DNA from: Flavobacteriaceae bacterium
GTDB taxonomy: Bacteria; Bacteroidota; Bacteroidia; Flavobacteriales; Flavobacteriaceae
Length of the DNA: 40,333 nucleotides
Direction: 5' to 3'
Assembly: GCA_029938265.1 (NCBI GenBank)
Contig: JAOZVI010000007.1
Span: forward strand, 1-40,333
The translations under genes were made by a program, and so were the position numbers. Below the pieces are notes generated by a model. That model was not told where the DNA came from and ran no database searches. It worked only from the letters and a program-made list of their open reading frames with translations. Each line of letters starts with the position of its first letter. Position 1 is the stretch's first letter. Shown piece by piece: positions 15,326-17,134 of the stretch.

Positions 15326-17134
15326 TTAAAGATCTAATTTAAAAGTTTTTCTTAAAGTGATGATAGCACTATTTTTACTTTTTAATAGTTCGTATTTTTC
15401 TTGAGTTGTATAGGCAATTTTGTTCGTTTCATCTTCATTAATTGTTACTTTAAAATCTAAACTGTAGTTGTTTAGTTTTTTACGTAAATATTTTAATGCT
15501 CTGGGTCTGATCTTGTTAAGTTCGGCTTCCATTAGTTTATTTGAGTAAGTAACATGAATCAGATTGTTTTTAACACCCGGTGTATCAGCATTTAAAATTG
15601 AAGCGAAAATTTTATCACCATTTTTGTGAAGATATTCGATATATTCATGCCAAACTTCTAAAAAAGTATCATTTGTAAACGGATCATTCGGCAGATCTTT
15701 CGTGCTGCTAGTCTTACTTAATTTTGACAGTTCAATAGCTTTTTCTTCATCTTTTTTTCGCTCAAGGCTTTTGATACTTAAAATGGATTTCCTTGAATTA
15801 TTAGAAGTATATTGGAGTTTGGGTTCAGGATCTTTTGGGATTGGAGCCGTCGTTTGTTTTAAGCTTTCTTCTGGAGGGATTTTTGTTTTATTTTCAATAT
15901 TTGATCCTGTAGAATAAGTACTTTTTCCTTCTGTAAATGAAGAAGTTACTTCTTTAATTTTGGTTTTAGATTCCTGTTGAACTTTTTCGGGAATATCTAA
16001 TTTTTCAGCAACAGCATAAGATGCAAAATGAGCCGCAGGAATTATAAAGTGTTCAGACTTTTTTTTTTCGGCATTAAATGTAATCGAAGCGATTTGCATT
16101 AATGTGAGTTCAACTAATAAACGTTGATTCTTACTACTCTTATATTTTATATCGCAATCATTAGCCATATCAATTGCCTGTAGTAAAAAATGAAGATCGG
16201 CCTTGATTGCCTGATCAAGATAAAGTTTTTTAGCAGTATCACCTACTTCTAATAAGCTAATAGTAGCTTTATCTTTTGCAACCAAAAGATCTCTAAAATG
16301 TGAAGCCAATCCAGTTATAAAATGATGTCCGTCAAAACCTTTATCAAGAACATCATTAAAAGCTAACAACACATTAGGAATATCATTTTTGATTACCAGA
16401 TCAGTAATTTTAAAATAGATATCGTAATCGAGAACATTTAAATTTTCGGTTACGTCTTGGCGGGTTAGATCTTTACCGGAAAAACTAACAACTCTGTCAA
16501 AAATAGAAAGGGCATCTCTTAAAGCGCCATCAGCTTTTTGAGCAATGATGTGTAAGGCATCATCTTCGGCATTTACATTTTCTTCTTTGGCAATTTTGTG
16601 TAAATAATTCTTAATATCTATAACACCAATACGTTTAAAATCAAATATTTGACATCTTGATAAAATAGTTGGGATTATTTTGTGTTTTTCGGTTGTGGCC
16701 AAAATAAAAATCGCATGTGCAGGAGGTTCTTCAAGTGTTTTTAAAAATGCATTAAAAGCTGACTGCGATAACATGTGCACCTCATCAATTATATAAACTT
16801 TATATTTACCGGTTTGAGGGGGTATGCGTACCTGATCTGTTAAATTTCGTATATCATCAACTGAATTATTAGAGGCAGCATCTAATTCAAAAATATTAAA
16901 TGCAAAATCCTCATCTTCCGATATATTTTCACTGCTTTCCTGATTTATTCTTTTGGCCAGAATACGTGCACAAGTAGTTTTACCTACACCTCTGGGTCCT
17001 GTAAATAGTAAGGCCTGTGCCAAATGGTTATTCTTTATAGCATTTTCTAAGGTGTTGGTAATGGCTTGTTGCCCCACAACATCACTAAATTTTTGCGGAC
17101 GATATTTTCGAGCAGATACTATAAAATGTTCCAT
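15326..17134 (-). CDS. dnaX: DNA polymerase III subunit gamma/tau (clamp loader ATPase)
   Basis: 'ARKYRPQKFSDVVGQQAITNTLENAI', 'FTGPRGVGKTTCARILAKRIN', 'ELDAASNNSVDDIRNL', 'IIDEVHMLSQSAFNAFLKTLEEPP', 'TEKHKIIPTILSRCQIFDFKRI'. Confidence 0.97.
   Translation of the reverse strand: MEHFIVSARKYRPQKFSDVVGQQAITNTLENAIKNNHLAQALLFTGPRGVGKTTCARILAKRINQESSENISEDEDFAFNIFELDAASNNSVDDIRNLTDQVRIPPQTGKYKVYIIDEVHMLSQSAFNAFLKTLEEPPAHAIFILATTEKHKIIPTILSRCQIFDFKRIGVIDIKNYLHKIAKEENVNAEDDALHIIAQKADGALRDALSIFDRVVSFSGKDLTRQDVTENLNVLDYDIYFKITDLVIKNDIPNVLLAFNDVLDKGFDGHHFITGLASHFRDLLVAKDKATISLLEVGDTAKKLYLDQAIKADLHFLLQAIDMANDCDIKYKSSKNQRLLVELTLMQIASITFNAEKKKSEHFIIPAAHFASYAVAEKLDIPEKVQQESKTKIKEVTSSFTEGKSTYSTGSNIENKTKIPPEESLKQTTAPIPKDPEPKLQYTSNNSRKSILSIKSLERKKDEEKAIELSKLSKTSSTKDLPNDPFTNDTFLEVWHEYIEYLHKNGDKIFASILNADTPGVKNNLIHVTYSNKLMEAELNKIRPRALKYLRKKLNNYSLDFKVTINEDETNKIAYTTQEKYELLKSKNSAIITLRKTFKLDL
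16058..16068 (-). promoter_or_regulatory. Candidate programmed slippage site (A10G) inside dnaX
   Basis: On the minus strand: GCC GAA AAA AAA AAG TCT GAA CAC. A -1 shift on A AAA AAG gives GTC TGA, i.e. one codon then stop (UGA at 16053..16055). Confidence 0.5.

Follow-up and report, generated by a model that had tools for sequence, protein, structure and literature searches.

The dnaX gene of this Flavobacteriaceae bacterium carries a run of ten A residues (A10) that we propose is a programmed slippage site, at which slippage by RNA polymerase would allow both tau and a gamma-like protein to be made from one gene. We give this reading a probability of roughly three in four. From the sequence and its relatives we infer that slippage takes place in this organism and that it would act in transcription rather than in translation, as we do any ratio of the products.

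Within the window (the whole stretch of 40,333 nucleotides that was analysed), dnaX, encoding DNA polymerase III subunit tau/gamma, lies on the minus strand at 15326-17134 as an ORF of 602 aa (as tau). The protein scores above the cut-off of NCBIfam NF011531 (DNA pol III gamma/tau; 723 bits vs 685). TIGR02397 matches residues 6-348, with AAA+, lid and collar matches over the same span, and the Pfam matches are DNA_pol3_delta2 and DNAX_ATPase_lid. The putative A10 slippage run (16059-16068, minus strand), assigned from sequence and relatives, falls in codons 356-359 (GAA AAA AAA AAG) and adjoins the end of the collar, the gamma/tau boundary. The minus strand around it reads GCC GAA AAA AAA AAG TCT GAA, with G directly 3' of A10 and AAG as codon 359 of 602, exactly as described in the original prediction, which had also anticipated a short product of about 360 aa and the early closure of both alternative frames. 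Translation agrees: a message with A10 gives 602 aa, one with A11 gives 360 aa ending in ...EKKKV, and one with A9 gives 363 aa ending in ...EKKSLNTL. The stops in the two non-tau frames stand 1 and 5 codons past the run. The nearer is a TGA (16053-16055, minus strand), reached one codon on in an A11 message or following ribosomal slippage by -1, and the other is the TAA (16042-16044, minus strand) that closes the A9 frame (AGT CTG AAC ACT TTA TAA). The gamma-like product would be missing the tau-only tail (linker and C-terminal domain; 15326-16058, minus strand), which is matched in other frames in relatives that have dnaX as two ORFs. In the window gene tau is in frame on the DNA, so that this is the single-ORF form and not the two-ORF form.

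No other coding run of As in the window is as long as A10, and eleven runs of A8 come next. The original prediction, which gave 7-8 nt for the other homopolymers checked by eye, missed a T9 (coding sense) at 2831-2839, in the early part of an ORF on the minus strand (1145-2857). This T9 may sit upstream of the true start codon of that ORF. Across the whole 2.73-Mb draft genome, runs of at least ten As occur at about nine places, and the only ORFs that overlap them are dnaX and two short ones (147 and 126 aa).

The RNA:DNA hybrid of RNA polymerase is 9-10 bp long. On an all-A hybrid the polymerase would realign and release dnaX mRNAs with A10 or with As gained or lost. Tau (602 aa) would be translated from messages that keep the register (A7, A10 or A13), and those in the other registers would reach a stop one or five codons on, yielding a clamp-loader subunit of 360-363 aa that resembles gamma, with the AAA+ and collar domains and without the tau tail.

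Taken alone, the A10 of the window gene could be a product of chance, and the weight of the evidence therefore rests on relatives. We collected dnaX from 60 relatives, 80 named genome contigs, and phylum and class samples, giving 322 loci (319 distinct) with an uneven, partly similarity-chosen sampling in which many genomes are MAGs. A run of A9-A13 lies between the collar and the tau tail in 267 of the 319 distinct Bacteroidota genes, most often as A10 (198), and it is identical (A10) in sister genomes of the same genus (L007, L008, L009 and L010). The base that follows the run varies (G in 114 run-bearing loci, T in 78, C in 75). Across these sequences the conserved unit is A10, and the A_AAA_AAG heptamer is not conserved. 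The run is absent in some groups, including Bacteroidaceae, and other classes of the phylum lack it in 15 of 35 sampled genes. In L064, L087 and L107 (Bacteroidaceae), as well as in L062, L093 and L096, dnaX has no A run of eight or more and is mostly a single long ORF. This group has apparently lost the site for slippage.

Both non-tau frames are closed within 10 codons after the run in 243 of 256 loci (95%), compared with 27-29% at control positions. Among genes with tau in frame, the median distance to the first stop is 1 codon in the -1 frame, where control positions give 9, and 5 codons in the +1 frame, where they give 11. For a -1 ribosomal shift the second of these stops would be superfluous, whereas transcriptional slippage, which would populate every register, would use both, in line with descriptions of Thermus (PMC1088944, PMC5009743). 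A comparison of relatives had been suggested as a check together with the original prediction, and in it the unbroken A run and the near stops are retained while the flanks vary.

The position of the tau tail provides a further line of evidence. When a profile of the tau C-terminal domain was searched in all three frames of the 319 loci, 218 had the domain in frame with the N-terminal part, 73 had it in -1 and 8 in +1 (L030, L053, L090, L105, L144, L216, L259 and L273), and 20 gave no match. In the 81 out-of-frame loci (73 needing a shift of -1 and 8 of +1), tau depends on a shift, and a gamma-length protein is the direct product. A run of at least eight As is present in 79 of these 81. In the other two (L226 and L327) the tail is in the -1 frame and the longest A run in the linker is at most 5; these may have a different type of shift site or a sequence error. 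The interval in which the shift has to occur, from the last upstream stop in the tau frame to the downstream stop in the zero frame, has a median of 28 nt and contains the run; it is at most 40 nt long and contains the run in 53 of 78 loci. Tau is expected to be necessary at every replication fork. Assuming that it is essential here as elsewhere, the two-ORF genes make a shift at the run close to a requirement in these relatives. In the window's own genus, L026 has A11 and tau out of frame, in one MAG only. Among run-bearing loci the in-frame or out-of-frame state changed at least 37 times on a quick FastTree tree built from 352 residues. The share of runs that are A10 is alike in all frames (74% in frame 0, 79% in -1 and 75% in +1), which indicates that it is not the protein sequence that maintains the length of the run. 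Thus, the earlier proposal of a gamma-like protein made by slippage gains support from the runs of relatives, the near stops and the tau genes that require a shift.

That proposal had left the choice between ribosomal and transcriptional slippage open. We favour transcriptional slippage over an E. coli-style mechanism because the heptamer is not conserved, both frames are closed, some relatives are of the +1 type and the stimulators known from E. coli are missing. Programmed -1 ribosomal frameshifting of the E. coli type, with A_AAA_AAG (16058-16064, minus strand) as the slip site for gamma and the longer A run as incidental, is the strongest competitor, and we consider it unlikely. The window gene does have the E. 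coli order of A_AAA_AAG, one codon and TGA (L371), and 73 of the 81 out-of-frame relatives need -1. In E. coli, tRNA-Lys(UUU) is the only lysine tRNA, and the UUU anticodon is likewise the only one found among the tRNA-Lys genes here, in a genome that is 90% complete. However, no Shine-Dalgarno-like element precedes the run in the window gene (the sequence before the run is ATTACATTTAATGCCG), and the motif shows no notable enrichment in relatives (8% vs 5% in controls). A stable downstream stem-loop is also lacking in the window (-6.3 kcal/mol, z +0.4, compared with -23.2 kcal/mol in E. coli), and the downstream folding signal over all run-bearing loci is small (mean z -0.54 vs about -0.3 in controls). 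Furthermore, the terminal G of the heptamer is not conserved in relatives, the +1 frame is closed too, and selection keeps A10 although seven As would suffice for a ribosomal shift. The eight relatives that need +1 also speak for transcriptional slippage; a differing direction of the shift was the criterion of Antonov et al. for transcriptional realignment (PMC3711429).

A reading in which only tau is made, the run being no more than the lysine codons of an AT-rich gene and the stops in the alternative frames there by chance, is very unlikely. Given the window protein and its codon usage (88% AAA among Lys codons), the probability of at least nine consecutive As somewhere in the linker is indeed about 0.78. 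A test for avoidance of long A runs, over the coding DNA of the window only, gave no A9 against 2.7 expected, and one A10 against 1.3 expected. The comparison with relatives gives a different picture. Synonymous resampling predicts a run of at least nine As in 74 of the 217 in-frame genes, and 178 of the 217 have one. The linkers of the same genes contain 269 such runs in 111 kb, whereas their N-terminal coding portions, 326 kb in all, contain one. GC-rich relatives also retain the run: at least A9 is present in about half of those above 55% GC, and 7 of the 13 above 60% GC keep it despite the use of AAA for only 23% of Lys. The run holds one position in the gene across the phylum, the near stops in both frames far exceed the control, and an only-tau reading would have to accommodate the 81 loci with tau out of frame. 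Chance from codon usage was rejected as an explanation of the run on these comparative grounds.

We regard as still less probable the suggestion that the two-ORF relatives are uninformative, either because the tail is a separately started protein or because of sequencing errors in the homopolymer. An ATG in the tau frame ahead of the C-terminal domain exists in 25 of 70 loci of the -1 type, but the other 45 have none. Single cases, such as L053 (A9) and L026 (A11), could be errors. However, the out-of-frame type is shared throughout whole groups with the run steady at A10 (Flavobacterium, Weeksellaceae and families f22, f48 and f58), and single-contig genomes show the same state (G028, G030, G038, G053 and G115), so that sequencing error cannot explain the pattern. 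Finally, phase variation at the DNA level, with the run as a tract that toggles dnaX between alleles for tau and gamma, is scarcely credible. Long homopolymers do mutate (as PMC3711429 says for poly-A tracts), but the length of this one is nearly fixed at A10 in every frame, and with tau expected at every fork an off state would be lethal.

Transcriptional slippage at A10 may be assisted in many of these organisms by an RNA hairpin on the 5' side of the run. RNA that ends exactly at the run folds more stably than shuffled sequence (27-nt windows, mean z -1.27, with 29% below -2), and 30-nt windows that end 3-20 nt short of the run give no signal (mean z -0.18 to +0.08). With a hairpin defined as a stem of at least 6 bp that ends within 3 nt of the run and has an energy of -5 kcal/mol or lower, 133 of the 267 run-bearing loci (50%) have one, compared with 15.5% in shuffles (examples are L009, L010, L015, L050, L102, L169 and L295). 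The signal is also present under a null of synonymous codons (mean z -0.99). Taking one value per family outside Flavobacteriaceae (111 groups, in which family codes and NCBI families may overlap), the mean z is -0.87 (p 1.8e-10), and -0.60 under the synonymous null (p 3.4e-07). Hairpins were found beside A10 in 117 of 198 loci and beside A9 in 7 of 41.

In Flavobacteriaceae the common hairpin is CTCTATCA-CTTT-TGATGGAG, with A10 immediately 3'. Its pairs hold in 71% of cells (59 distinct 30-mers), compared with 64% after column shuffling (maximum of 500 shuffles, 68%), and double changes number 30 against a shuffle mean of 15 and maximum of 27. Controls slid along the sequence pair less (35-54%) and have similar counts of double changes, and because of the latter the covariation gives moderate support only. 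Hairpins of unrelated sequence occupy this position in other lineages; Rufibacter (L102), for example, has GACCTCTCTGTGAACGGAGAGGTC-A10. The hairpin is missing from the window gene and from its two nearest sisters (z +0.1 to +0.9); the 30 nt 5' of the run in the window (16069-16098, minus strand) fold weakly (-2.0 kcal/mol, synonymous-null z +0.13). A 5' hairpin (-10.1 kcal/mol) is present in two further members of the genus. Intrinsic terminators have this layout, a hairpin flush with a tract of hybrid length, and so does the slippage site in the Roseiflexus insertion sequence (IS) (PMC5009743). We see even odds that these elements constitute a terminator-like cassette present across the phylum, in which an RNA hairpin flush with a hybrid-filling A10 drives realignment to give tau and gamma, and which is kept while the frame behind it drifts among three. 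The window gene would then be a member without the hairpin, working with A10 alone.

The nearest known counterpart is dnaX of Thermus thermophilus, in which transcriptional slippage occurs at A9 (Larsen 2000, as cited in PMC1088944 and PMC5009743). As in Thermus, the A run of the window gene lies between the collar and the tau tail, tau is in frame on the DNA, near stops occupy both other frames and ribosomal stimulators are lacking. Unlike in Thermus, the run is A10 and not A9, the phylum is a different one, the tau frame flips among relatives, and slippage here is putative. The main text of Antonov et al. (2013; PMC3711429) describes two-ORF dnaX in 17 genes of 12 genera, nine with A10 and all of the -1 type, and proposes transcriptional slippage for them; Bacteroidota/Chlorobi relatives similarly have tau out of frame after A10. 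In contrast to that set, the window gene is a single ORF, and the 81 out-of-frame loci found here include eight of the +1 type and stand beside single-ORF genes whose run is likewise A10. E. coli dnaX shares with the window gene A_AAA_AAG, one codon and UGA, as well as the derivation of gamma from the tau frame, but the window has no AGGGAG motif or stable downstream stem, and both of its frames are closed. Stem-loop-stimulated transcriptional slippage is known from the Roseiflexus IS (Penno 2015, as described in PMC5009743). Half of the run-bearing relatives resemble it in having a hairpin that ends at the tract. They differ in that the tract is a homopolymer, A10, and the gene a housekeeping one, where the Roseiflexus site is U5C5 within a transposase; the window gene itself is without the hairpin, and slippage in these dnaX genes is putative.

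For dnaX of Bacteroidetes, the only earlier report that we found is Antonov 2013, covered in its main text. We found no earlier account of conservation throughout Bacteroidota, in a literature that included few subscription papers and leaves priority uncertain; within the same scope, we found none of +1-type dnaX, of a 5' hairpin abutting the run or of an A10 that stays constant while the frame flips. According to a 2012 review, most bacteria lack a dnaX frameshift signature and may not make gamma (PMC3290774).

If our reading is correct, gamma is made in most of a major phylum, at a site retained over a very long period, and this would argue that gamma matters. Annotation may present dnaX genes of this kind as encoding gamma alone or as defective, which calls for caution. 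The two-ORF relatives offer a natural test, as a presumably essential protein in them would depend on the slip. The 5' hairpin, if it acts as proposed, would carry stem-loop-stimulated transcriptional slippage from a transposon into a core cellular gene.
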